Below are positions 34,941 to 56,555 of a stretch of DNA of 64,000 nucleotides, piece after piece. How positions within the stretch are numbered: position 1 is the first letter of the stretch; each line of letters begins with the position of its first letter. Both the position numbers and the translations under genes were made by a program. The notes beneath the pieces are model-generated. The model was not told the DNA's origin, made no database searches, and saw only the letters and a list, made by a program, of their open reading frames with translations. Origin of the DNA: a virus; IMG/VR virus record IMGVR_UViG_3300023180_005138, positions 53,379-117,378 of that record; one strand, given 5' to 3'.

Positions 34941-37900
34941 TTATGTATTACTCCTAATTGATCTTCTGATAGGGCCGTTTGTATCTAGGTCCTTAAGAAT
35001 CAGTTTAACAATTGCTGTTTCGCCGTCCATCTGTGTTTCTCCTTGTTCAGCTTCTTTATCTGATCCTTTATTTTCTATTTGAACTTTTACCTTTGGTGCT
35101 GAATTAAGAGCGGTTTTACCTGTAGCATTCATGCGCTCCATATTTGAAGCACCGATAGCATCTACAGCACTCTTCTTCATTACAAACTCGCCTGGCTCTA
35201 AGAGAGCAGGCACGCTATCACGGGTTCTAACATTACCGCCTGCTGCATAACGAGCAATACCTTGTCTACCTACTAAACCACCTGATGCAGCAGCCACTAG
35301 GGCAGTAAAGAATCCACCGCCACCACCAGCAGAACCAGATGCACCTACAGTTTGTAGGGCTGTAGCAGCACTATAGGCTGCTGTAGTTAGTGTAGTATCC
35401 GCCGTTGTTTGACTTACAGCAGCTACCTTAGACCCCACCTGTGCTGCTTCTAGTGCTTGTGTGGCAGCACCTGCGCTTCCTAAACTACCACCAAGAACGC
35501 TTGCATCATTACCTACGTTGAGTAGGCTGCCTCCAGCAGTCTGTGTATCAGTACCAAAGCTACTTAAAAGTCCACTACTATCCGTAACTTTGGTACCAAA
35601 ATCGCCAAGATTTGTTACGCCATCCTTAAGGCCTGTTGTAAAGTTATCAAGCTCTGCAGTTACTCCCTCAAGGCCAAGGCCACCGTCGCCGATGCCGGCT
35701 TCTGATACACGATTAGTAAACTTATCCGTAGAGAAAGGTGTGGCCGCTGGGAATCCTCCCATAGGAGCTTGTCCAAAACTGGTTCCGAAGGGACTCCCTA
35801 GAGGAGTGAAAGAGCCTCCAATATTACCTAAACCTCCAGGGGCGCCAAAACCCATAGCACCAAAACCACCGGGGCCTGACGGGTTAAGAGTATTTTGACC
35901 AAACATATCAAAAGGACCATATGTTGTCGAAGAATAACCTGTTCCCATTGGATTAAAACCGCCGCCTAAATTATAGTCAGATTGTACCTGATCTCCCAAT
36001 AGAGTACCTATTGGTACGTTTTTACTCTTAAGCACCTCAACAGGGACTCCATTAGACGTTATTCCGCCGCTGCCGCCACCAAACCAATCGCTTACCATAT
36101 CTCCTAGATTTTTAAAAGCACCCGAAACAGAATCTACTATTCCAGATACGCCAGATTTTATACTATCCCATAAATCACTAAATGCACCTTTTGTTTCTTC
36201 TAACATCTCACCAGGAACAGGGGACTTTCCACTACCACCAGTATCAGTAATCTTTGGACCACCAGTACCAGGAATCTTTAGACCACCAGCTGCTTCACCT
36301 ACTCCACCACCAGAGCAAGCACAGAACTCTGATACGTTAGTAACATAAACTGATTGGATGCCAACGTCTTTAAGGGCTTTAACACTTCCTTCAATATTTC
36401 CGAGACTTGATTTAATAGCTGAAGAAGCCGCATCAGGTAGAGTCTGTGTTAATGCTGTTGTAGCAGTTTTAGTAAGCCCTCCTAACAATCCTTGGAATTG
36501 TTGTTTAAGAAAATCAGTTACAGGCTGTACAATAAACTGCTTAAAAGCTTGTTTAGCTAGGTCCACTAAAATACCCTTAAGCATATTCATTAGACCTTCT
36601 TTAAAGTTCTTCATTGTTAGAGTACCGTTTTTAATAGCCTCAAATAAATCATCGACACCTTTATTAAGAGCACCTTCGATAATTCCTGCTGCTGCTTGTA
36701 AATATTTTAATAACCCAGCTTCTTCTAACTGGTACTTTCTTTCTGCTAAAGCAATAATTTCCTTTTGCTTATCTCTTTCAATGTTTAAAGCTGTTAGCTT
36801 TTCTTGTGCGTTAGAAGAAGCGGCAGCTTTTTGTGCCTCAATACTTTTTAACTGAGCTTCGGTATTAGCACTCTGTGCTTCTATTTCTTTAATTTTCTGA
36901 TTATAATTTTCAAGTATTTTTGCTGATTCAGCGGCATATCTTCTGTCTACGTCAGCTTGAATTTTTTTAATCTTCTGCTCTTCTGCGTTTAAAAGCGATG
37001 TTTTAAGATCTGCAAGACGTTGATTCTTCTTAATCTCCTCGTTTAATATATCAGCACTTGCAGTTTTTTGTGCCTCAATATTAGTTCGTAAATTCTCAAC
37101 ATTAGTTTGAAGGGTCTTAATAGTAGAATTAGCCAACTCCCTTGCAGTCTTCTTAACTTCCTCAAGTTGTGGATCTTTCTTACCAGTTTGCAACTCTACT
37201 AGTCTAGCCTGTTGCTCTAAAATTTTAGCCATTGCTGTAATGTATCTATCATCTACCTGAGCCTGCATTTCAAGAAGCTTAACCTTCTTTTCAATTAGTC
37301 CTAGTTGATATTCTCTATCCTTAGCAGCATTTGCTGCTTGTAAGTCAGCAACTTTTTGTTGAGATAAAACAAGTTCTTTTTCTTTAACAATTTGCTCCGC
37401 TCTGTCAGAACGAGCCTTATCATCCAGCGCCTTTTTCTCATCTAGTGCTTTGAACTGGTCAAGTGCTTCAAGTGCTGCATTAGTTTTCTTTACCTCGTTT
37501 AATTCTATTTGTTCTCTTAGTATAGCAGCTTGTTTATCTAAAGCAGCTAAGTCAGCAGCTAGTTTAGTGCGAATTAAGTTTTCTTCTCTATCAAGACGCG
37601 CCATTTCTGCATTAAACTTTTCCCGAGCAACATTAATCTCTGCATCTCTAATTTGTTTTTCTGTAGCTAAATTACCTAATAAACCTAATTGATTTTGTTG
37701 TCTTTCTGCAGCATTAACTTTTTGTAAATCTGCTCGTCGAGCAGCAGCATTAGTTGCTCGTTGCGCAGCTTCTGCTCTAGCAGCTTCTGCCTGTGCTAAT
37801 TGTTTGGAGGCTTCTAAAGCTTTTATTCTTAAGTCAACTTCTTGTTCAAGTCCTTTTCTAACAGTAGCAGCCGCAGCTCTTTCAGCCGCGTTAGCTTCGT

Positions 37901-40748
37901 TTTTAGCTTGTTGAATTTCTCTAGCATTAGCCTGTCTAGCTTTTAGTAGATCTAGCTCTTTTTGTAAAATATCTACAGAAGCTTGCGCTTTTAATACTGC
38001 TAGTTGCTGTTGAAGAACAGTTAAACTTCTTTGTTGAGTTCTTAAAAGTTTTGTAGAATCTTTTGCAGCCTCTATTATAAGACCAGCTTTTGCTTTTTCT
38101 GCTGTAGTAGCATTGGTTGCTCGTTGAATTTCTATAGAAGTTATACCTAGTGATTTAATCTTGCCTTGTAAAATCGATGCCTCGTTATTTTTACCCTCTT
38201 TTTGCGCTTGAACTAACATCTCTTGTAATCTAACAGCTTCTCTTTGCTTATCAGAGATATTTCCTGCCGCTGCTATTGTATCATCTAGGAACTTCATTTG
38301 ATTTGCTTTTACTTCTTCAGGAGTAGCAGCTATCTCAGCTATCTTTCCAACTTTGCTTATAGACCCACTAGCTAATAAAGAGTCAACCGCTTTTAAGGCT
38401 CCTCCGAAAGTAGATTGAAGATCTTTGTTAATTTTTTCTAATCCTTGAACATTAGCTAAAGTATTAGAAAGACTTTGAATTCTTTTCTCTAATTTGTATA
38501 AAGCTTCCTCTTGCTGATTACTTAGATCATCAAAATCTAGAGTATCTGAGAATTTTTCTAACTCTCTATTTGCTCTAACCAAAGCTTGAGAAAGTTTTTC
38601 TGAATTAACACCTAACTTTAATTGCTCATTAAAGTTCTGTATGGCCCCCGTTGTTGCTACAAGAGCGGCTCCTTGTGCTTCTGCTCCCGCTATAAATTCA
38701 TTTTGACCGCCTACATTTTGTATAATAACGTCAAGTAAGTTTTTATACTCTTTTACCGCCGCTCCATTTTCATCAGTTAATTGTTTTACAGCTTTTGCTG
38801 CGGAGTCATAAGACACACCAGTGGCAACAATACCCCTTAATAAACCAACATTTTCTTTTCCTACAGTTTTAATAGCTTGTTTTGTTTCTTGAAGAACTAA
38901 TAGTCTAAACTTTTCTTCTTTTGTTAACTCTCCTGTCTTGTCAGTTAAAGCTTTAATTCGCGCATCAAGGGTTTTTACTCCTGCGTCGTTATCATTGAGG
39001 AGTTTTGTAGTTCTTTCAAGAGATTTACCAGTTAAATCCTGTGAAGCCGCATACTGAATTTGTGATTTACCAAAAAGGAGGAAATACTTTGTGAGCCTAT
39101 CTGTTTTTTCAGAGGCAATTTGTGCATTAACACTACCAGCTTGTACTCCTTGTATTAAATCTGCCTGTTCTTTTCTAACATCTGCTATCTGATCTTCTGT
39201 AAGCCCAAGAGCCTTGGCATATTGAACCGCAGTTCCTGATGAATTTAATATCGCAGTAGATAATCCTTCTATTTCTTTTCTATTTTGTCTAGCCTGAGCG
39301 TTTAATCTTTCAAAGTATCCTATTACCTCTCCAATTAAATCAATACCAAATAAAGAAAGAACTCCTTGAGCAATTCCTACATATATTAAAATTTTTGACA
39401 TTGCCGCCCCTACAGCAACTACTGCTCCTTGTAGAACACGAAAAGTTCCTGCTAATCCTGATACACCCTTTGCAGTTCCTCGTGCAATCTTACCTGTACC
39501 TTCTAGCCTGTCATTAAAAGCTGTTTCTGCAGTTTCGAGTCCTTTAATCTGTGCTGCATAGACCCCCGTGCCGTTATCAAGAGCCTTTAAATCAGCAATT
39601 CTACGTGCAGTTAACTCTTTGCCTCTTTCAGCTTGCCTAATAGATAGATCTTGCGTTGCAAGAAGTTTACGAATTTCTGCCCCTTCAGTACGAGCTAATT
39701 TAGCATTAGTGCCTTGAATAGCTCCTGTACCTGTTAACCCTCCTTCTCCTTTAGAGAGAGCCTGTTTAGCAGCCGCCTGGAACTTAGTAAGAGCTTCTGG
39801 ACCGGCTCTTGAAAATTTCTCAGTAAGATTATCTAATTTTCTAGTAACAAAATCAAATCCAGACCCTAGTCCTGCAACTATAGAGTCTTTTAGTTTTGAA
39901 AAAACAATAGCACCTACAGCCCCAAAAGCTATAATTAAATTACCTGTTTTAGATAAGAAATCAGCAATAGGGCTTAAAACATTTGCTACGAATCCTAACA
40001 CAGATTGTGTTAAGTCTTGGAACTTAGCAGCTAATTGTTCGATTGATTGTTGGGAAGTTTTAGAACTTGTATCAATAATACCAAACTTTGCATTACCTTC
40101 ATCAATAACAGCATTAACAAATGCTTGGCGTCTTTCAAAAGTAGTCAAACTAGAAGCACTTCTATTTAAAGATGCAGCATACTTATTAACAGCAGGCTCA
40201 ATACGAGTAAAAATACCAAGTTCGTCGATAAGTTCTGGTTCTAACTTAGCAGAGCCTCTAACTAGTCGGTTAAAAGAATCTGTTAAATCTCTACCTAAAG
40301 CACGAGATGCTTTTAAAGAAACAGTTGTAAGACCTTCAATCTGTTTAGCACTAAAACCTGCAGAAAGTGCGGTGTTAACTTGAGTAGCAGCTTCAACAAT
40401 AGATAACTGATTTTTTGTTATCTCTTTTGTTTTAGCAATAATTTGATCCCCTGATTCCCCAATAGTTCTAGCTAAAGTTTGAGTACCCCTAATAACTTCT
40501 TCGTTTCTAGCAGCTCTAGACAGTGCTTGGAAAGCAGAAGTAATAGCAAAGATATTAGCGGCAGCGCCTGCATAAACAGAAACCAGACCTCCCAAACCAG
40601 ATGCTTGAGCAGAAAACTGTCTTCCTGCTGATGCGCTGGTTTGACCAAGTCTGGTTTGTTGTTTAGTTACTGTTTCAGTAGCCGCAGCTGCTGCAGCCGC
40701 TCCTTTGGTACTAAAAGTAGTTTCAATAATATTTTTAATTGATGCCAC
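34941..40748 (-). CDS. Tape measure protein
   Basis: A 1,935-residue protein that sets tail length. It has an N-terminal Ala-rich helical region, hydrophobic segments near residues 270-290 and 450-480, and about 700 residues of Ala/Glu/Lys-rich coiled coil (for example KALEASKQLAQAEAARAEAA). A glycine-rich C-terminal part holds GGLVGRQGIARYAAGGNV and the common ending VPALLEPGEFVMKKSAV. Its only two cysteines are Cys1476 and Cys1478, in FCACSGGG (36315-36323). By comparison with lambda gpH (853 aa) the tail should be long. Confidence 0.95.
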   Translation of the reverse strand: MASIKNIIETTFSTKGAAAAAAATETVTKQQTRLGQTSASAGRQFSAQASGLGGLVSVYAGAAANIFAITSAFQALSRAARNEEVIRGTQTLARTIGESGDQIIAKTKEITKNQLSIVEAATQVNTALSAGFSAKQIEGLTTVSLKASRALGRDLTDSFNRLVRGSAKLEPELIDELGIFTRIEPAVNKYAASLNRSASSLTTFERRQAFVNAVIDEGNAKFGIIDTSSKTSQQSIEQLAAKFQDLTQSVLGFVANVLSPIADFLSKTGNLIIAFGAVGAIVFSKLKDSIVAGLGSGFDFVTRKLDNLTEKFSRAGPEALTKFQAAAKQALSKGEGGLTGTGAIQGTNAKLARTEGAEIRKLLATQDLSIRQAERGKELTARRIADLKALDNGTGVYAAQIKGLETAETAFNDRLEGTGKIARGTAKGVSGLAGTFRVLQGAVVAVGAAMSKILIYVGIAQGVLSLFGIDLIGEVIGYFERLNAQARQNRKEIEGLSTAILNSSGTAVQYAKALGLTEDQIADVRKEQADLIQGVQAGSVNAQIASEKTDRLTKYFLLFGKSQIQYAASQDLTGKSLERTTKLLNDNDAGVKTLDARIKALTDKTGELTKEEKFRLLVLQETKQAIKTVGKENVGLLRGIVATGVSYDSAAKAVKQLTDENGAAVKEYKNLLDVIIQNVGGQNEFIAGAEAQGAALVATTGAIQNFNEQLKLGVNSEKLSQALVRANRELEKFSDTLDFDDLSNQQEEALYKLEKRIQSLSNTLANVQGLEKINKDLQSTFGGALKAVDSLLASGSISKVGKIAEIAATPEEVKANQMKFLDDTIAAAGNISDKQREAVRLQEMLVQAQKEGKNNEASILQGKIKSLGITSIEIQRATNATTAEKAKAGLIIEAAKDSTKLLRTQQRSLTVLQQQLAVLKAQASVDILQKELDLLKARQANAREIQQAKNEANAAERAAAATVRKGLEQEVDLRIKALEASKQLAQAEAARAEAAQRATNAAARRADLQKVNAAERQQNQLGLLGNLATEKQIRDAEINVAREKFNAEMARLDREENLIRTKLAADLAALDKQAAILREQIELNEVKKTNAALEALDQFKALDEKKALDDKARSDRAEQIVKEKELVLSQQKVADLQAANAAKDREYQLGLIEKKVKLLEMQAQVDDRYITAMAKILEQQARLVELQTGKKDPQLEEVKKTARELANSTIKTLQTNVENLRTNIEAQKTASADILNEEIKKNQRLADLKTSLLNAEEQKIKKIQADVDRRYAAESAKILENYNQKIKEIEAQSANTEAQLKSIEAQKAAASSNAQEKLTALNIERDKQKEIIALAERKYQLEEAGLLKYLQAAAGIIEGALNKGVDDLFEAIKNGTLTMKNFKEGLMNMLKGILVDLAKQAFKQFIVQPVTDFLKQQFQGLLGGLTKTATTALTQTLPDAASSAIKSSLGNIEGSVKALKDVGIQSVYVTNVSEFCACSGGGVGEAAGGLKIPGTGGPKITDTGGSGKSPVPGEMLEETKGAFSDLWDSIKSGVSGIVDSVSGAFKNLGDMVSDWFGGGSGGITSNGVPVEVLKSKNVPIGTLLGDQVQSDYNLGGGFNPMGTGYSSTTYGPFDMFGQNTLNPSGPGGFGAMGFGAPGGLGNIGGSFTPLGSPFGTSFGQAPMGGFPAATPFSTDKFTNRVSEAGIGDGGLGLEGVTAELDNFTTGLKDGVTNLGDFGTKVTDSSGLLSSFGTDTQTAGGSLLNVGNDASVLGGSLGSAGAATQALEAAQVGSKVAAVSQTTADTTLTTAAYSAATALQTVGASGSAGGGGGFFTALVAAASGGLVGRQGIARYAAGGNVRTRDSVPALLEPGEFVMKKSAVDAIGASNMERMNATGKTALNSAPKVKVQIENKGSDKEAEQGETQMDGETAIVKLILKDLDTNGPIRRSIRSNT

Positions 40749-41071
40749 TAGCGTCTCACCCTTGATGCGGCTTCTCTAGTTCTACGTTGTTGGTCATAGT
40801 GTGTAGAAGCCTCAGAAATACATACTTGAAGAAGTTCAAACACCTCTTCACTATCTTCAATTTTATAGATGCGCATAATATCTCCTAAACCTGCATAGTC
40901 TTTACCTAACCAGACTCCATTCATTCCCTCTATCTTATCTGGCAAAGCATTAAAAAGCCTTAGAGCTTGTTGCGCTTCGTAACTTAATTCATGTACCTCT
41001 GGCGGCATTTCGTCAGGGTCAGGGTCCCATCCCATCTGTTCACACATTAACAGATATTGGTCTTGGGTCAT
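40748..41071 (-). CDS. Tail assembly chaperone, downstream frame (lambda gpT-like)
   Basis: A 107-residue open frame placed, like lambda T, between a chaperone gene and the tape measure. It begins at an ATGA overlap after the upstream gene with no proper ribosome site, which favours production by -1 frameshifting as a C-terminal extension of the 41068-41538 product. It contains DPDPDEMPPEVHELSYEAQQ and a basic C terminus (DQQRRTREAASRVRR). It overlaps the tape-measure start by one base. Confidence 0.8.
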   Translation of the reverse strand: MTQDQYLLMCEQMGWDPDPDEMPPEVHELSYEAQQALRLFNALPDKIEGMNGVWLGKDYAGLGDIMRIYKIEDSEEVFELLQVCISEASTHYDQQRRTREAASRVRR

Positions 41072-41080
41072 TCCCCCTGC
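41068..41080 (-). other. Candidate -1 ribosomal frameshift site of the tail chaperones
   Basis: In the zero frame the codons read CAG GGG GAA TGA. Slipping one base back at the G run (41073-41077) gives GGG GGA ATG, which joins the downstream frame without a stop. The product would be about 263 residues. A five-G run is rare in this AT-rich genome and matches where lambda-like phages place their G-T slip site. The A-site codon pairs imperfectly after slippage, so P-site slippage is the likelier mechanism. Confidence 0.6.
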
Positions 41081-41538
41081 TTGGAAGCTGTGCCGGAGGT
41101 ACTTTTCGAGTTTTTTGAGTCTTCAGCCTTCTTATTAATAGAAAACTGCTCATAATCATTTAGTGCGTCAGTTACAAACTGATCAAAAACTGTGGAATTC
41201 TTTAGAAGATCTAGTGCGTCTTCTTCAGAATAATTTACGTCCTCATTTGGCTCCATAGAACTAATATCTACTGGAAGAAGCTTGGGCAACGATCTAACTT
41301 TAAGACCTGACCACCCCTTAATTGCTCTACGTGAATACTCTTCAATAAACTTATCATTATCAATTTCCTCTTCACGTTGACGAGTACGCTTATTAAACTT
41401 ATATGTAAGACTTGAGTTACGAATCTTCATTAGATCATCACGACCTAAATATACTAGATTAACTACAAAACCTTCGATATCAGGAAACTCTACGTCAATT
41501 ACGGTTTCCTTTGCCATTAAACTTGAAATTTTACTCAT
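41068..41538 (-). CDS. Tail assembly chaperone, upstream frame (lambda gpG-like)
   Basis: A 156-residue protein just upstream of the tape measure and its small companion gene. It starts MSKISSLMAKETVIDVEFPD, with GAGGGGAAAACC upstream. Its LVYLGRDDLMKIRNSS and acidic C-terminal half are typical of tail chaperones that coat the tape measure during assembly. The reading frame ends at TGA overlapping the next ATG, immediately after a run of five G (41073-41077). Confidence 0.8.
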   Translation of the reverse strand: MSKISSLMAKETVIDVEFPDIEGFVVNLVYLGRDDLMKIRNSSLTYKFNKRTRQREEEIDNDKFIEEYSRRAIKGWSGLKVRSLPKLLPVDISSMEPNEDVNYSEEDALDLLKNSTVFDQFVTDALNDYEQFSINKKAEDSKNSKSTSGTASKQGE

Positions 41539-41564
41539 TTTTTGGTTTTCCCCTCTGTGTTAAT

Positions 41565-41668
41565 AAAAAGGGTGCTCACCGTCGTTATCAACGCCTGTCA
41601 AACTGAGGGGGCAAGTTTGACGTTTGTTAACAGTGAGCACCCACATGAAATTAAATTTTGCCCCCTCA
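41565..41668 (-). terminator. Structured terminator / pseudoknot between major tail protein and chaperone genes
   Basis: In the leftward transcript an outer perfect 10-bp stem (41633-41642 with 41570-41579; GGGTGCTCAC/GTGAGCACCC) encloses an 8-bp stem (41614-41621 with 41597-41604) and is followed by TTTTT (41569-41565). The 11 bases at 41658-41668, upstream in the transcript, are exactly complementary to the apical loop region 41604-41614 (TGAGGGGGCAA), so a pseudoknot can form. Location directly after the major tail gene suggests partial termination or mRNA-end protection. Confidence 0.8.
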
Positions 41669-41681
41669 AAGCTCATTTAAC

Positions 41682-42938
41682 TTACTTTTCTACAATAAGT
41701 GTCAACTCATCTCCGGTACCTTTGCTAGTTTCCTGAGCAAGGAAGTTAACTGTAATACCGATAACATCTTCAACAGCGTGAGTTGGAATCTCGAACTGAA
41801 TCTTTGGCATATTGATTGCAAAGAATGGTGCTGTTGCTCCGCCAATTTTAAGGTTAGCGTTAGATGTAGCAGAAGAAGATGTACGAGTGTCTTCAACGAT
41901 CTGCTTCAAGAACTGAGCAGAATCACTTGAACCACCACGTAAGTAAGCACTTAGTGAACCAGAAATAGCACGAGCACCGGCAAACTGACCGATAGGTGAG
42001 TTAAGAGATGCAAGCTCTTCTGGTGTTAAGTATGTGATGTTATTATTGTAGTCAAAACTGAGTGCAGTTACTGGGAATGTGAAATCAACCCCTGTAGCAG
42101 TTGAACTTTCAGCGTGCTTAATATCAATTGTTGAAAGTCTATTCTTAATGAAGCTAGCAGAAGAAATTGTGCCAGAAACATTATAAGAGTTCCAAGGATG
42201 ATAAGAAGCCTCAGCTGTCAGTGCATACTGATTTGAGTTAGCTGTGATTTCATTTCCTCCAGCATTTAGTATTCCACCGAATACTGAAATAGCATTATTA
42301 CGTTTATCATCACGAAGTTCGATTAGGTTTGTACCGAATCCTGTCCAAGTGGTTGTAGCAATGCCGTCAATAGCAGCATCAATAGACCCTTGGTTAACAG
42401 TTGCGTTAGAAACCTGATAAACAACGTTATCCATTTTGAAATATAGATGGTATTCAGAAGCAGTAGCAAAGTTTGCAGAATGCTGGAACACGTTTGCAGC
42501 AGCAGCACGCTCTCCTAGTGCAAATTTACCATCAGCCTGCCAAGTACTCTGAAGTGAATCGCCAGAAGCAAATGCAGTGTTACTCATTAAGGCTTGCCAC
42601 ATAAACCAGTCGGCGCAAGGCATTGAATTACCTTCAGCAGACTTATCTGAAGCACCTGCGGTCTTTTCAAGACCTGTTGGTTTTAGATACGCCTGGAAGT
42701 TCCAGTCAACTGGGTTAAGGGCGGTATTGAATCTCTGTTGTGAACGATCAGGAGTCAAACCACTTTCTAGTGATGTGATATCCTGAGTTGCAGCAGCCTG
42801 AGACACTGCAAATCCAGCAAGAATTTCTACTTGCCAAGTGTTTGCAGGTTTCATAGCTGTTACTTCGGCACCGCTGGCAATATCAACGGTGGACATAAAC
42901 ACTTTTGTGTTTCTCTGTAGGTTAAGTTGGGCAGCCAT
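41682..42938 (-). CDS. Major tail tube protein
   Basis: A 418-residue protein with an excellent ribosome site (AAGGAG). It starts MAAQLNLQRNTKVFMSTVD and continues with TWQVEILAGFAVSQAAATQDI; the position just upstream of the tail chaperones and tape measure and downstream of a tail-terminator candidate is that of the major tail protein in siphoviruses. The C-terminal part (KIQFEIPTHAVEDVIGITVNF) has the beta-sandwich character of tube proteins. It is longer than lambda gpV (246), so extra domains likely decorate the tube. Confidence 0.87.
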   Translation of the reverse strand: MAAQLNLQRNTKVFMSTVDIASGAEVTAMKPANTWQVEILAGFAVSQAAATQDITSLESGLTPDRSQQRFNTALNPVDWNFQAYLKPTGLEKTAGASDKSAEGNSMPCADWFMWQALMSNTAFASGDSLQSTWQADGKFALGERAAAANVFQHSANFATASEYHLYFKMDNVVYQVSNATVNQGSIDAAIDGIATTTWTGFGTNLIELRDDKRNNAISVFGGILNAGGNEITANSNQYALTAEASYHPWNSYNVSGTISSASFIKNRLSTIDIKHAESSTATGVDFTFPVTALSFDYNNNITYLTPEELASLNSPIGQFAGARAISGSLSAYLRGGSSDSAQFLKQIVEDTRTSSSATSNANLKIGGATAPFFAINMPKIQFEIPTHAVEDVIGITVNFLAQETSKGTGDELTLIVEK

Positions 42939-44789: not shown

Positions 44790-46088
44790 CTAATAAATCA
44801 CTCTATATAAATCTAGAATACGACGAATGTGTGGAGGAAAATTAGCACTCAATGCTCTATCTTGAACATTCTCACCTTGGAAAGTAAAGCCTTGGGATTC
44901 TTGCCGATCTTTGTGTAACATTTTAGCATAATCCATAGTAGCCATCAATAAATCTTGAGGAATAGAGCCAGAATCATATCCAGACTTATAAGTTACTCTA
45001 ACACCACGAGGATAATTCTTAAATGTAGCAGCTCCTACAAGAGTTAATCCAAAATCTCCTGTACCATCACCAATATTTTTAGTAATTTCGCCTGTATCAG
45101 GGTAGAATAAAAAGTCTTCTACAGAAGCGTGATCGTCAGCAAAGCCAGAGGTATCATTGTCTCCATCAAAATGTGCTAATAAAACAGTATTATCATCTGT
45201 CGCATGTTGGTAAGAAGGAGCAGTAAAAGCAGTAGTATGTCTAGCAACATGAGAGATACGAGTTTCATCCATAAATCCATTAAAATATTGATAATTTGAA
45301 GTAACATTTTGTCTTGCAATTTCAAGTTGCGCAGAAATATCAGGCATCACATTTGAAGTAGTTTGTGTGCCTATAGAAGTTCCATCACGGTAAAGTGTCC
45401 AAGAAGAACCAGAACGAACAATTTCTACATGATGAAAAGTATTAGCAGAATAACCAGTTGAGGCCGCATGTGTAACATTAACAACTTCAGTACCTCCAGA
45501 TACTGCTCTAAAAGTAAAACCATTAGTAGTATCATATCCAAGGGACCAAAGATTATTAACATCCGCAGATTGTGAGATGAATACTGCATTAGCAGAATAA
45601 GAGTTAGATCTTATTTGTGTATCAATAGTAAAATCAGAGTCTCCAAAATACCAGTCATTAGAATCAGCTAAATAAATATAGTCATCAGATCCGTCAAAAA
45701 ACACAGAGGAGTCCCCGAACTTTTTATATCTAGTTTTTAGAACGGGTCCTCCACTGCGAGTTAAAGTATGGTTTGAATCTATTCTTGTTACTGAAGAACC
45801 ATCTGATTGTGGATTAGTTAGTTTTCTATATGCAGTACCGTCATACTCAGAAATAGAATGAACATTTTGTAAGGGTAGCCTAGATACAAAAACCGAAGAT
45901 TTTCCTCCGTCAAATACTTCTGAATACGAGTTACTTAAAACTTCGTGTCCAATATAGTTTTCTACAGCACCACAAGCGAAAGAAATAAGATTGCTGAGTC
46001 TAGCATCTTCGTTAGAGCTTGTAATGTTTAGATAATTTTTTATTTGTGCTAAAGTTACATATGGATATTTACCATAATTGCTAGACAT
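44790..46088 (-). CDS. Head-tail connector with LamG-like inserted domain
   Basis: A 432-residue protein. The ends match small gp6/gp15-type connectors: residues 1-90 (VTLAQIKNYLNITSSNEDAR, SNLISFACGAVENYIGHEV) and 352-432 (PQDLLMATMDYAKMLHKDRQE). Residues 120-312 form a concanavalin/LamG-like sandwich (SVFFDGSDDYIYLADS, DFTIDTQIR, HHVEIVRSGSSWTLYRDGT, DETRISHVARHTT), placed between them. Connectors usually run 100-120 residues. The insertion may decorate the neck. Confidence 0.82.
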   Translation of the reverse strand: MSSNYGKYPYVTLAQIKNYLNITSSNEDARLSNLISFACGAVENYIGHEVLSNSYSEVFDGGKSSVFVSRLPLQNVHSISEYDGTAYRKLTNPQSDGSSVTRIDSNHTLTRSGGPVLKTRYKKFGDSSVFFDGSDDYIYLADSNDWYFGDSDFTIDTQIRSNSYSANAVFISQSADVNNLWSLGYDTTNGFTFRAVSGGTEVVNVTHAASTGYSANTFHHVEIVRSGSSWTLYRDGTSIGTQTTSNVMPDISAQLEIARQNVTSNYQYFNGFMDETRISHVARHTTAFTAPSYQHATDDNTVLLAHFDGDNDTSGFADDHASVEDFLFYPDTGEITKNIGDGTGDFGLTLVGAATFKNYPRGVRVTYKSGYDSGSIPQDLLMATMDYAKMLHKDRQESQGFTFQGENVQDRALSANFPPHIRRILDLYRVIY

Positions 46089-46349: not shown

Positions 46350-46379
46350 AAGAAAGGGAGGCAGGTTAACCTACCTCCC
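46350..46379 (-). terminator. Terminator after the capsid gene
   Basis: In the leftward transcript GGGAGGTAGG and CCTGCCTCCC form a 10-bp stem (one G-U pair) with TTAA loop (46370-46379 with 46356-46365), followed by TTTCTT. It lies 39 bases past the capsid stop. A weak promoter-like TTAACC and TATAAG follow. Confidence 0.75.
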
Positions 46380-46417
46380 TCTTCCTTAAGGTAAATCAGA
46401 ATCTATTATACCTAAGA

Positions 46418-47812
46418 TTAGGCAAGTGTTCTGATTGTAGCAGCATAGCCGTAGGTGGTTGAAACGTTTGCACCTGCACCTGAGCCTGTGGTTGAGAGAG
46501 CCTTGAAGTCAAAGCGTGTGCTCATGTACATCGCTGTGACCTGCTGGCGAGGCTCGTACTCGCTCTCGATCTCCATACCACGGCGTTCTGCGATCATCCA
46601 GCCTGGCTTGTAGACTAGAGCACCAATGTCGGCTGAGTTAGAACCAACGTTATCTAGGAACTCAGTAATAACAACTGGGATACCATAGATTGCGCCAACA
46701 GAACCTGTGAGGTATGTTGCGTTTGGTCCGAACTTATCGACTGTGCGGAAGTCGGAGGTTGTGACTAGCTCGTTGTAACCTTCGATTGTGGTTAGATATA
46801 CGAGGTGGTCACCAAGCTGTAGACCGTACTTACCCATTAGGGCGCGGGCTGAAGCAATATTAGCTGCTGTAGCCTTTGTGTCGCCATCGGCGGTACGAAC
46901 GGATAGACCGTCTGTAGCAACCTGGTTAACCATTGTGGTGATACCCTTAACAACAGAGGCATAAGTTGATGTGCCAGCTGGGTTAGCTGTGAAGCCTGAT
47001 AGGGCGCCAGTACCACGAAGGATTGCCTTGTCGATTGAACGAGAAAGGCGACGTGTTGCTGCGCGACGGAGGAAGTCGATTAGAGGAAGAATTGTATCCT
47101 CTTCTTCATCCTTGGCAAGATGTGTTGTAACCATGAACTTGTGTGGTGTAAAGTCAACTGACTTAATTGCGTTCTGGTTTGAGGTTGGGACGTTTGATGT
47201 ATCACCAACGCCTGTGGCATATGTGCCAGAAGCGAACTGTGCTACGTAATCGTCTGTATCCTCATCGGCGACTGGGACACGGAATGTCTTTGCATCGACC
47301 TGGATTCTATCGAACATAGGAGCAATAACGAGCTGCTGCTCCATTTCTTCATAGATATTTGTTGAGAAGTTGCTTAGGAACTGATCAACTGAAGTGACGG
47401 CCTTAATCTGATTACCAAGCTTGGTATCAAATGGGTCACGACGATTGAGAGCCTTAGCAAGAAGGAAGGCATTAGCCATTTCCTTTTCGCTATACTTGCT
47501 GGAAGCCTTCTGCTGCTGATAAACATGCTTGCTTTCAGAAATAGCTTTAATCTCGTCCTTATATTTTGCAATCTGTGCCTTTAGCTCAGAAAGCTCTTCA
47601 CGGGTCTGGCGAGTTGCCTCACCATTACGCTCAGCCTCATCGGACTCACGTATAACAGCTTCACCAGCCTTCTCGACTAGCTTCTCTGTGTTGTTTTCTC
47701 CAACTTTAACGGAGACTTCCTCGACAGCCTTCTCCACAACTGTTTCAGTTGCAGGAGCTGCTTTCTTTTCAGTCTCTAGTACAATTGGATCACCTGCATT
47801 TTCGGTTGCCAT
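46418..47812 (-). CDS. Major capsid protein, internal in-frame start
   Basis: The ATG at 47812 (MATENAGDPIV) lies in frame within the fusion and has AAAGGAGA eight bases upstream (47821-47828), an excellent ribosome site. The product of 464 residues would hold a charged helical delta-like region (REELSELKAQIAKYKDEIKA) plus the HK97 fold, the normal size and architecture for a capsid protein. This would let the phage make capsid protein in excess over protease. Seen: start and ribosome site; inferred: use. Confidence 0.65.
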   Translation of the reverse strand: MATENAGDPIVLETEKKAAPATETVVEKAVEEVSVKVGENNTEKLVEKAGEAVIRESDEAERNGEATRQTREELSELKAQIAKYKDEIKAISESKHVYQQQKASSKYSEKEMANAFLLAKALNRRDPFDTKLGNQIKAVTSVDQFLSNFSTNIYEEMEQQLVIAPMFDRIQVDAKTFRVPVADEDTDDYVAQFASGTYATGVGDTSNVPTSNQNAIKSVDFTPHKFMVTTHLAKDEEEDTILPLIDFLRRAATRRLSRSIDKAILRGTGALSGFTANPAGTSTYASVVKGITTMVNQVATDGLSVRTADGDTKATAANIASARALMGKYGLQLGDHLVYLTTIEGYNELVTTSDFRTVDKFGPNATYLTGSVGAIYGIPVVITEFLDNVGSNSADIGALVYKPGWMIAERRGMEIESEYEPRQQVTAMYMSTRFDFKALSTTGSGAGANVSTTYGYAATIRTLA

Positions 47813-49441
47813 TGTTTCATTCTCCTTTATAGTCTTAGTAGTCTTATGACCGTTTACTAATAAGGCTAGATCCTTTGAAGTCTCTTCGCCATCGTTGCAG
47901 TCAATACTCTTAAGCTTTTCGATGTTATTTAGCATCATTTTAGCAATATGATAGTTAGTGTCATTCCATTCTGATGATGGGGTAGTGGTTAAGTTTAGTG
48001 TTTTATTCAGCTTTTCCTGTAAAAGTTCACTGTTTTTAACAGCTTCGTTATCTTTCACTGCATAAAGCTCTTGTTCAGAAAGTGTAACCAGTGAGTCAAA
48101 CTTTTCTTTAATATTGGAACGTTCTCCATCACTTAAGCTTTTGAACTCTGTAACAGAGACATCTAGATCATACTGTGATCCAAGGTCCCAAAAATTCGCT
48201 ACTGATAAATTTTCAGCAGGGATTGTAACTGTATTATCCAATGATTTTCCGTTTAAGTCAACTTCTAAAAATTGAAAAATAGGGTTTTGGGCAGTAGCAA
48301 TTTTCACTGTCTGATACCTTTTACCCTCATGTTTTACAAAAGCACCATTTTTAATTTGTGCGGTTTCTGCACTAAGAAGATTAACAAAAGGAATTGGTTC
48401 ATAAGGATCAGATGATAAGGTCTTATCCTCATCGTCTTCATCTTCCTCGGATAGATTCTCAATTTCTACGTCTTCAGCAAGATTGACTTCCTTAATAATT
48501 TCCTTCTCTTCTTCTTCAGCGGCAGCAACAATGACTTCTTCTGTCTCGTTTGTTTCAACGTCTTTAGTCATAGTATTCTCCTCTTCAGAATATAGAGTAA
48601 CAGATGAGTAGTTAGGGTTTTTAGACCCACCGTTTGCCTCAGTCTCACTAGGAGACATGGGACGGGCTTCTCCATCTGTCTTATCAGGTGAATCAACATT
48701 GTTAGAAGGTTGAACTAAGAACACAATTTCATGACCGTGCCCTTCTGCTTCTTCAATGGTATAATTCACAATTTTGTGATAATGCTTTTGGCCATGAGAG
48801 GAATAGGTAGTAACACCATTGCCACTATCATCCATTTCAATGGTATGATAATGACCGGCTTTGTTACCAGTTATTCCGACATAAATGCCTTCCATCATTT
48901 TCACTTCGTCTTTTAAGCTAGCCTCTTTGAGACTCTTCTTAAAGTCTTCATATTCATCGTTAGATTCAAAACTTTTTCTAACACTGAATAAGCTTTCTTG
49001 GTTGCAAGGAACGGATACAACACTAATTTCGTGAAGTTCTACATCAGTAATTTGTGTTGTGTCTGTATTCCGATCATAGCGACCATCCTTAACGCGGAAC
49101 CCTACAGAAAAGCTCTTTAAAGCTCCGTCATTAATAAGTGTTTGTACACCGTGAAGTTTTTCTGCTGCGTCACTTACATAAGCTTCAACAAAAATACCTT
49201 TACGGTCTACAGAAATCTTTTCTACACGTCCAATAGGTTTGCTGTGATCGTGCTGATAAAGAAGAACAGGGTTCTTACGATAGTAATCAACACCCTTAGC
49301 CCAAGCATTAGCTGTAATGATATCACCTGCTCGATCTTTATCGGTGGTGTTAGCATAGCCAGCAATTCTTAAGCCTTTCTTCTTCTTAGGAGCACGTTTC
49401 TCAACAGTTAGTGGACTGTATACATGAAACATTTTATCCAT
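46418..49441 (-). CDS. Prohead protease-scaffold-major capsid fusion
   Basis: A single frame of about 1,007 residues from ATG 49441 (nine bases after AAGGGG; ATG 49447 and an earlier 49504 are possible). The N-terminal part is an HK97-type S78 prohead protease (YQHDHSKPIGRVEKI, LKSFSVGFRV, ELHEISVVSVPCN). Then comes a His-rich segment (HYHTIEM, KHYHKIV, GHGHEI), an acidic linker, a helical scaffold-like part, and an HK97 capsid protein (MFDRIQVDAKTFRVPV, ATRRLSRSIDKAIL, IYGIPVVITEFL). Internal ribosome sites precede Met at 48571 and 47812, suggesting nested products. Confidence 0.9.
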   Translation of the reverse strand: MDKMFHVYSPLTVEKRAPKKKKGLRIAGYANTTDKDRAGDIITANAWAKGVDYYRKNPVLLYQHDHSKPIGRVEKISVDRKGIFVEAYVSDAAEKLHGVQTLINDGALKSFSVGFRVKDGRYDRNTDTTQITDVELHEISVVSVPCNQESLFSVRKSFESNDEYEDFKKSLKEASLKDEVKMMEGIYVGITGNKAGHYHTIEMDDSGNGVTTYSSHGQKHYHKIVNYTIEEAEGHGHEIVFLVQPSNNVDSPDKTDGEARPMSPSETEANGGSKNPNYSSVTLYSEEENTMTKDVETNETEEVIVAAAEEEEKEIIKEVNLAEDVEIENLSEEDEDDEDKTLSSDPYEPIPFVNLLSAETAQIKNGAFVKHEGKRYQTVKIATAQNPIFQFLEVDLNGKSLDNTVTIPAENLSVANFWDLGSQYDLDVSVTEFKSLSDGERSNIKEKFDSLVTLSEQELYAVKDNEAVKNSELLQEKLNKTLNLTTTPSSEWNDTNYHIAKMMLNNIEKLKSIDCNDGEETSKDLALLVNGHKTTKTIKENETMATENAGDPIVLETEKKAAPATETVVEKAVEEVSVKVGENNTEKLVEKAGEAVIRESDEAERNGEATRQTREELSELKAQIAKYKDEIKAISESKHVYQQQKASSKYSEKEMANAFLLAKALNRRDPFDTKLGNQIKAVTSVDQFLSNFSTNIYEEMEQQLVIAPMFDRIQVDAKTFRVPVADEDTDDYVAQFASGTYATGVGDTSNVPTSNQNAIKSVDFTPHKFMVTTHLAKDEEEDTILPLIDFLRRAATRRLSRSIDKAILRGTGALSGFTANPAGTSTYASVVKGITTMVNQVATDGLSVRTADGDTKATAANIASARALMGKYGLQLGDHLVYLTTIEGYNELVTTSDFRTVDKFGPNATYLTGSVGAIYGIPVVITEFLDNVGSNSADIGALVYKPGWMIAERRGMEIESEYEPRQQVTAMYMSTRFDFKALSTTGSGAGANVSTTYGYAATIRTLA

Positions 49442-50705
49442 TCTCATTATCCCCTTGTGTAGGATCAGGAGGTGTATCTGTATTATCTTCTGTAGGTCTT
49501 CCACCTTGTGAGGGGTCTACAGCACTTCCTGTAATATTTTGTGGTATTCTAATCTCATCGCAATCTTCACGATGTTGGAATCTTAATCCTATTCTAGCTT
49601 CATTAGGTGTAATAATACCAGTATTTACTAATGTAGAATAGTACATAGCTTGTGTTTTTTCGTCCGCTCTAAGAGCTGAAACAGCTGCTCTATCTGGACG
49701 AATAATAATATCTGAGTTAAAGAAGTGAGAAAATGCGCTACAGAACTGTTCTAAAATTGGCATAATAGTATGGTTATAAAATAATACTTGGTTTGCAGCT
49801 ATGTTAGCATTATTTCCTGATTTTAACAGAACATATGGTACACCAAGTGCTTTTGCAATATCTTGTTGGACTCGTTCTACAGAAGCTTCAAAATCTAACT
49901 CGGAAAATTTAATTTGTCCAAAAGGACTTAGCTGTAGTCCGCCATCTAAAATAGCAGGATTTCTAGCACCACCATAAATAGTAGAATAACTCTGTCTCCA
50001 CTGTTCTAATAATCTTTCTTTTACTTTTGGACTTAGAACAGAAGCAGTTTGTAAGACAATACCTGGAATACCATTATTCTTAAAGAATTGACGCTGGAAA
50101 TTAATTAAGTAATAGTATAACTCAATTAATCTTTTAACAGATTTTAACTTTGGTGCGCCACGGTAAATACTATCTTCGTTATCTGACTTAATATGAATAA
50201 TTTCATCAGTATCAAATTTTAGAGCAGATTCTTGTCTTGTGGTTTGTTTACCATAACTATAAGCACTTGAAGACTGAACATTTCGCACTAAAAAGTTAAA
50301 ATGCGAAATAAAGGTTTTTTCGTCTGGAATAACTTCCATATCATTAGCTGGTAATACGTAAAGATTTGTACGATCATAATAAAAGAAGGCATTACCATCT
50401 AGTAAATAGTCTAAGAAAGCTCTACGAAATAACTTAACTCTGTCTTCAAAAGGATTTGGTGAACGATTTAAAAGTTTATCTACTTTCTTAACAGCACCTC
50501 CGCCTTCAACAATAATCGGGACTTCAATCAAAGCATTAATAATTAACTCAATAGAGCGATTAACTACTTCAACGTCACGATATGCTTGTTCAAAATCAAG
50601 AATAGTTTCTGGACTCGCATAAGGCTCTGCGGCAGCTAACGAAGGCTGTGCAGGGTTAAGCTTTTCTGATATCCATCTTCTCCAACCTGGAACTTCGTTA
50701 GCCAT
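49434..50705 (-). CDS. Portal protein (HK97 family)
   Basis: A 423-residue protein of the HK97 portal type: FEQAYRDVEVVNRSIELIIN, YLLDGNAFFYYDRTN, EIIHIKSDNEDSIYRGAPKL, then QQDIAKALGVPYVLLKSGNN and a C-terminal DKTQ-like stretch (ADEKTQAMYYSTLVNTGIIT). It forms the ring through which DNA enters and leaves the head. Its stop lies just inside the start region of the protease-capsid gene. Confidence 0.95.
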   Translation of the reverse strand: MANEVPGWRRWISEKLNPAQPSLAAAEPYASPETILDFEQAYRDVEVVNRSIELIINALIEVPIIVEGGGAVKKVDKLLNRSPNPFEDRVKLFRRAFLDYLLDGNAFFYYDRTNLYVLPANDMEVIPDEKTFISHFNFLVRNVQSSSAYSYGKQTTRQESALKFDTDEIIHIKSDNEDSIYRGAPKLKSVKRLIELYYYLINFQRQFFKNNGIPGIVLQTASVLSPKVKERLLEQWRQSYSTIYGGARNPAILDGGLQLSPFGQIKFSELDFEASVERVQQDIAKALGVPYVLLKSGNNANIAANQVLFYNHTIMPILEQFCSAFSHFFNSDIIIRPDRAAVSALRADEKTQAMYYSTLVNTGIITPNEARIGLRFQHREDCDEIRIPQNITGSAVDPSQGGRPTEDNTDTPPDPTQGDNENG

Positions 50706-56336: not shown

Positions 56337-56537
56337 TTAGCTCTCCAGTGATGATTTTAATTTAGAAACAAATACTGACTTAGCTGCATCAAGTTGGTCA
56401 AAGCGCATCCTTAAGTTATCTTGCTGAATGCTAATATCTCTAAGCTGTGCAACGCACTTTAATTGGTCTTGATTAAAAGTGCTTAAATCATACTCTTTAT
56501 CATCAATTGTAATTTTATTTGTATTTTCTTCTGTCAT
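56337..56537 (-). CDS. Small protein, DUF6447-like
   Basis: A 66-residue protein with a short N-terminal beta hairpin (KITIDDKEYDLSTFN) and a helical coiled C-terminal part (AQLRDISIQQDNLRMRFDQL). The pattern resembles small DUF6447-type phage proteins. A ribosome site GAGGGG precedes the ATG. Function unknown. It could conceivably be the missing small terminase, but it has no helix-turn-helix. Confidence 0.68.
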   Translation of the reverse strand: MTEENTNKITIDDKEYDLSTFNQDQLKCVAQLRDISIQQDNLRMRFDQLDAAKSVFVSKLKSSLES

Positions 56538-56555
56538 AGTTCCCCTCTATCTTTC

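Follow-up and report, generated by a model that had tools for sequence, protein, structure and literature searches.

Plasmids ColIb-P9 (IncI-alpha) and IncB control repZ/repA by means of a pseudoknot, coupled to translation of an upstream frame, and the mechanism in ColIb-P9 is reportedly connected with work by Asano and Mizobuchi from 1998. In RNA phages, coat and replicase are coupled through the Min Jou interaction, in which the start of the low-level gene is masked by pairing with upstream mRNA. Pseudoknot control of a rep gene, with pairing of separated RNA sites coupled to translation of an upstream frame, is also described for IncL/M plasmids (PMC8125031). In E. coli, a long-range pseudoknot in the polycistronic rpmI-rplT mRNA serves L20-dependent control of translation of the downstream gene (PMC10931766).

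Here we describe an intergenic RNA from an uncultured marine, distantly T5-like phage. Tailed phages need hundreds of tail-tube subunits but few tail assembly chaperones, which are encoded by adjacent genes of one operon. For the chaperone genes themselves a frameshift is known to set the ratio; other ways in which DNA phages set such ratios have, to our knowledge, been little studied. The RNA between the tail and chaperone genes is a previously uncatalogued, folded and conserved element, the structure of which is near certain. Its possible action as a cis-acting translational switch or ratio-setter, linking termination on the tail gene to initiation on the chaperone gene, is given a probability of about 0.5.

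Layout of the tail-chaperone junction

The window, i.e. the whole 64,000-nucleotide stretch of the IMG/VR virus record that was analysed, carries all genes around the element on the minus strand. Its tail protein shares about 29% identity with cultured Demerecviridae homologues, and a search of the phage collection gave no nucleotide match to the source phage, while many close relatives are present in IMG/VR. The following features are referred to below:

46355-46380, minus strand: intrinsic terminator after the capsid gene, a simple hairpin with U-run (GGGAGGUAGGUUAACCUGCCUCCC followed by UUUCUU)
41682-42938, minus strand: major tail (tail tube) protein gene, the upstream cistron (PHROG 3575 major tail protein, E 6.9e-54; PF18906 Phage_tube_2)
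41684-41682, minus strand: stop codon of the major tail gene
41655-41676, minus strand: HP1, a small hairpin after the tail stop with R1 in its apical loop (consensus arms 41669-41676/41655-41662)
41668-41658, minus strand: R1, UGAGGGGGCAA, just past the tail stop and complementary to the HP2 loop
41570-41642, minus strand: HP2, a long compound hairpin, from fold and conservation
41630-41642/41570-41582, minus strand: arms of the HP2 outer stem
41626-41629/41589-41592, minus strand: HP2 middle stem
41615-41622/41596-41603, minus strand: HP2 inner stem
41614-41604, minus strand: L, UUGCCCCCUCA, the HP2 apical loop, with CCCUC invariant in 59/59 sequences
41561-41569, minus strand: UUUUUAUUA, U-run after HP2, a possible partial terminator in the clade of the window, not conserved in the family
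41550-41555, minus strand: R2, GAGGGG, the chaperone Shine-Dalgarno (SD) sequence, complementary to L (GAGGGG in 41/59 relatives)
41068-41538, minus strand: tail assembly chaperone gene, the cistron downstream of the element (PHROG 313 tail assembly chaperone, E 3.3e-15)
40748-41071, minus strand: second chaperone gene
34941-40748, minus strand: tape measure protein gene

On the mRNA the tail stop is thus followed by UGAGGGGGCAA, the long hairpin 41642-41570, UUUUUAUU, the chaperone SD AGAGGGG and the AUG. A preliminary description had been drawn up from this one sequence, and its central observation is exact: plus-strand positions 41604-41614 (TGAGGGGGCAA) are the reverse complement of 41658-41668 (TTGCCCCCTCA), a match of 11 nt that came up once when the bases of the 48-nt upstream stretch were shuffled 20,000 times. 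Equally real is the outer 10-bp stem (GGGTGCTCAC/GTGAGCACCC). Some wording needs adjustment. The complementary 11-mer had been equated with the loop, yet it extends into the pairs that close the 8-bp inner stem, and the strictly unpaired loop comprises 9 nt; and what had been called a strong terminator hairpin is a hairpin of compound rather than plain form, consisting of outer stem, 3' bulge, middle stem, internal loop and inner stem. Unpaired A residues in the bulge and the internal loops are near-invariant. In the window, the predicted fold of HP1 also pairs its AU-rich flanks. Just beyond the interval covered by the preliminary description, at 41550-41555, sits the chaperone SD, a second site with complementarity to the loop.

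Readthrough of the tail stop, or a C-terminal extension of the tail protein, was rejected as an explanation because in the window only a few codons follow the stop before the frame closes again. Several neighbouring features deserve mention in their own right. The two chaperone genes share an AUGA overlap adjoining GCAGGGGGAAUGA (window 41066-41080, minus strand), possibly a site of frameshifting or coupled reinitiation as in other phage chaperone pairs. The 1009-aa open reading frame at 46418-49447 (minus strand) matches a head maturation protease (phrog_80) and, overlapping with it, a major head protein (phrog_617), and may be a protease-capsid fusion. A head completion/connector protein (PF24163, PF05135) with an inserted LamG/ConA-like lectin domain (PF13385) is encoded at 44790-46088 (minus strand).

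Conservation and distribution of the fold

For comparison, 59 non-redundant sequences (under about 96.5% alike), with tail proteins down to about 54% identity, were aligned by MAFFT with no structural guidance. When HP2 and R1-L are considered together, 95.6% of cells are in standard pairs and 23 of the 31 pairs exhibit two-sided changes; the 248 cells with such changes compare with a shuffled mean of 75, and none of 500 shuffles reaches the observed value. With the partner displaced by 1-3 columns, the paired fraction falls to 43-51%, a control that somewhat favours the structure since the structure strings were chosen after inspecting the same alignment. The independent check for both hairpins is RNAalifold, which recovers HP1 and HP2 unaided. 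Within HP2, the outer stem is paired in 96% of cells with double changes in 12/13 pairs and the middle stem in 98% with double changes in 3/4 pairs, and parsimony on a tree of the flanking proteins counts 67 pair-keeping double changes against 26 breaks. HP1 has 83% of cells paired and two-sided changes in 8/8 pairs; five of its pairs were tested for coincident changes along tree branches, with p<0.001 for three, p=0.003 for one and a non-significant result for 13-35. Variant pairs are often G-U on the mRNA strand while A-C, the equivalent of pairing on the opposite strand, is almost absent. The fold therefore belongs to the mRNA strand as RNA, and a DNA-level inverted repeat is unlikely.

R1-L on its own is paired in 94.9% of cells, which none of 500 shuffles reached and which compares with 54-64% in slid controls. 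The proposal that the loop pairs with the upstream mRNA in a pseudoknot or kissing interaction is thus strongly supported by conservation, and the outcome named as refuting it, relatives that keep the hairpin and lose the pairing, did not materialize, as all of them retain R1-L. As in a pseudoknot, the HP2 loop pairs conservedly with sequence outside the hairpin, with compensatory changes at alignment columns 29-96 and once at 28-97; as in a kissing complex, R1 lies in the HP1 loop and L in the HP2 loop. The R1 side of the core GAGGG/CCCUC is invariant in 58/59 sequences. Compensatory change in relatives, proposed earlier as a check, is therefore massive in the hairpins and almost absent from the R1-L core, simply because the core hardly varies. 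The predicted core pairing is strongly supported, mainly by conserved complementarity and not by covariation. At pair 29-96, A in column 29 arises six times, always opposite U in column 96 and mostly via G-U intermediates; as the changes pass through these intermediates, the same-branch change test is not significant for this pair, and joint reconstruction is a fairer test than branch coincidence. Within the core a substitution occurs in L198 alone, where both partners differ (G-C replaced by A-U at 28-97). Further out, pairs 30-95 and 31-93 are frequently disrupted, so the conserved R1-L interaction amounts to about 7-8 bp, extending to 11 or more in the clade of the window. Chance complementarity is ruled out by the shuffle tests and by the conserved pairing of R1-L, HP1 and HP2.

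The same element is found in every recovered tail-chaperone junction of the phage group in which the region is complete. It is also present, next to a tail gene whose protein is 54% identical, on a contig binned into a SAR86 bacterium metagenome-assembled genome (L263, LUQU01000016.1), a weak hint at the host. An exact scan of all IMG/VR viral contigs for GAGGGG..CCCCTC..GAGGGG-N5-ATG with the right spacings, made with no protein information, returned 62 stretches, six of which are unrelated chance matches and all others the tail-chaperone junction. The element is thus specific to this junction. The genome of the window holds one copy, the next match to the covariance model having an E value of 9.6, and the weak model matches that four relatives (L051, L062, L064 and L066) show near position 1500, upstream of their tail gene, are not extra copies; they are equivalents of the ordinary capsid terminator. 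The model finds no element in five Demerecviridae loci, where a minor tail gene adjoins the tail gene with little or no gap. A known RNA family was dismissed as well: the window element, searched against Rfam release 15, had no hit at E values up to 5, and in five relatives the element was likewise unmatched, the three hits elsewhere in these loci being unrelated sub-threshold chance matches. A search of largely open literature retrieved no description of the element.

The chaperone Shine-Dalgarno sequence as a third site

Across the 59 sequences the chaperone SD reads GAGGGG in 41, GAGGG in 52 and GAGG in 58. This motif is not a general habit of the operon, since GAGGGG occurs in 0/156 SD regions of neighbouring genes (tail 56, second chaperone 56, tape measure 44) and 56/56 tail SDs are of the AGGAG type. 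On average, the chaperone SD has a longest Watson-Crick match with L of 6.2 nt, against 3.2-3.7 nt for the other genes. At the level of base complementarity, the match between L and the SD is gene-specific and conserved, although its GAGG part comes free as the SD still has to work as an SD. One further GAGGGG SD was seen in the window, preceding the start of an open reading frame at 56533-56547 (minus strand; GAGGGGAACT).

Since L-R2 would employ the loop bases that R1-L uses, the two pairings are mutually exclusive, and potential sequestration of the SD is written into the sequences with the exception of L198 and L199. In these divergent members the predicted kiss is GAGGGA/UCCCUC and the chaperone SD is a non-complementary AAAGG. 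L198, a single case, is the only aligned sequence lacking a GAGG SD and also the one with the core change. As the match is furthermore limited to 4-5 bp in L057, L144, L147, L159, L165 and L171, R1-L is universal and L-R2 pairing is not. If L must match the SD and the SD must match 16S rRNA, R1 has to stay GAGGG, which would explain a core that remains fixed while the other helices drift.

Mean predicted duplex energies are -17.7 kcal/mol for R1:L and -12.6 kcal/mol for L:R2, with R1:L predicted to be the stronger duplex in 55/59 sequences, and HP1 contributes -6.7 kcal/mol. HP1 plus L:R2 is accordingly close in energy to R1:L, for duplex energies that ignore loop constraints; such near-equality in the model is a desirable property in a switch. 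Counted from the first base of the tail stop codon, R1 begins 11-27 nt (median 16) downstream. Because HP1 begins beside the stop, a terminating ribosome would be expected to disturb it. The linker from HP2 to the SD measures 7-19 nt, so that L and R2 could pair easily in some members but under strain in others; with a linker of only 7 nt, HP2 would need to be bent or partly open.

Possible function and relation to known systems

The preliminary description had suggested that the element could set the ratio of tail protein to chaperones, an idea that becomes more concrete with the same loop being complementary to the chaperone SD. The loop could pair with R1 in a kissing or pseudoknot interaction, leaving the SD free, or with R2, covering it. 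R1-L would be the default, with the chaperone SD open, as R1 is made first and is predicted to pair more strongly. A ribosome that terminates on the tail gene would have R1 and HP1 inside its footprint or directly next to it. It should then melt HP1 or mask R1, so that L would be driven to the SD or kept off it. Chaperone initiation would in this way be tied to tail translation, helping to set a large ratio of tail protein to chaperone. We infer competition of the pairings in vivo, flipping by the ribosome and the direction of the effect. Our preferred sign is that heavy traffic at the tail stop would mask R1, so that L covers the SD and the chaperone is repressed. The opposite sign, in which the ribosome melts HP1, full R1-L pairing follows and the SD opens, is possible and resembles the repZ plasmid systems. 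More tentatively, and with the odds somewhat against it, the element may represent a new class of structured phage mRNA, in which the terminating ribosome acts as ligand of a bistable loop, a decoy SD-like site competes with the real SD, and the ratio of tail tube to chaperone is controlled with no protein involved across a large group of uncultured marine phages.

Alternatively, the element might serve as a stabilizer or processing site, the pseudoknotted hairpin blocking 3'-to-5' exonucleases or being cut by RNase III, which would give the tail mRNA a longer life than the downstream part and make the SD match secondary. HP2 is indeed very stable, strongly conserved and placed directly behind the gene for the presumably most abundant tail product, its conserved unpaired A residues hint at a compact fold, and the plain hairpin after the major capsid gene suggests one such structure behind each abundant structural gene. 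Still, we consider stabilization unlikely, for it requires neither an invariant GAGGG/CCCUC core nor a chaperone SD matching the same loop, and the capsid gene manages with a simple terminator. A protein-binding translational operator, at which the tail tube or chaperone protein recognizes the kissing complex, with repression or activation of the chaperone gene as a form of autoregulation, would fit the invariant core and the unpaired A residues and has an analogue in L20 acting on the long-range pseudoknot of the rpmI-rplT mRNA (PMC10931766); by itself it leaves unexplained why L matches the SD and R1 equally, and we regard it as distinctly unlikely.

The reading favoured by the preliminary description was a transcription attenuator, in which HP2 and its U-run form an intrinsic terminator and R1-L tunes read-through. 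In the window a stable hairpin is directly followed by the U-run UUUUUAUU, the clade of the window has UUUUU after the stem, and a run of at least four U starting within 4 nt of the HP2 stem occurs in 37/59 sequences. It is absent from the other 22, which include several clades and keep the folded core. A plain terminator is hence rejected as the conserved function: a terminator role is possible in the window and part of the family, and is weak as the main role. R1-L is, moreover, topologically compatible with the hairpin and does not constitute an antiterminator fold, rendering attenuation improbable. The capsid terminator of the same genome is instructive here, as there, too, a stable GC hairpin separates an abundant gene from a less abundant one. 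This terminator is a simple hairpin with a U-run, whereas loss of the U-run costs the tail element neither its compound fold nor the kiss. That GAGGGG is just an ordinary SD favoured by the phage, matched by L fortuitously, is largely refuted and highly improbable: GAGG can pair with any C-rich loop and at least one other gene of the window (start near 56533) has a GAGGGG SD, but the absence of this motif from the SD regions of the neighbouring genes, the uniform tail SDs and the conservation of R1-L in all sequences speak against it.

If the translational switch is real, the ratio would be controlled by RNA only, through three defined sites, in dozens of contigs from uncultured and for the most part marine phages, and by an element that Rfam does not list. 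The element also supplies a covariance model for annotating this phage group. In its proposed logic it comes closest to the control of plasmid repZ/repA (IncI-alpha, IncB, IncL/M) and to rpmI-rplT. The upstream frame of the plasmids is a leader peptide and that of the phage element an abundant structural gene; the phage loop is complementary to the SD itself, and no antisense RNA is known. Neither homology nor a plasmid rep context was found, the element residing in a phage tail operon and the triple-site scan pointing almost only to this junction. The rpmI-rplT mRNA needs L20 and differs in architecture, and the Rfam search with the window element did not retrieve it. Coupling of the Min Jou type shares with the phage element the placement of an abundant structural gene beside a low-level gene; the element described here belongs to a dsDNA phage, is intergenic and would use a kissing loop with two alternative partners. 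As no sequence relationship to the plasmid rep or rpmI-rplT systems is seen, we regard it as a new RNA family of a general kind that is already known.
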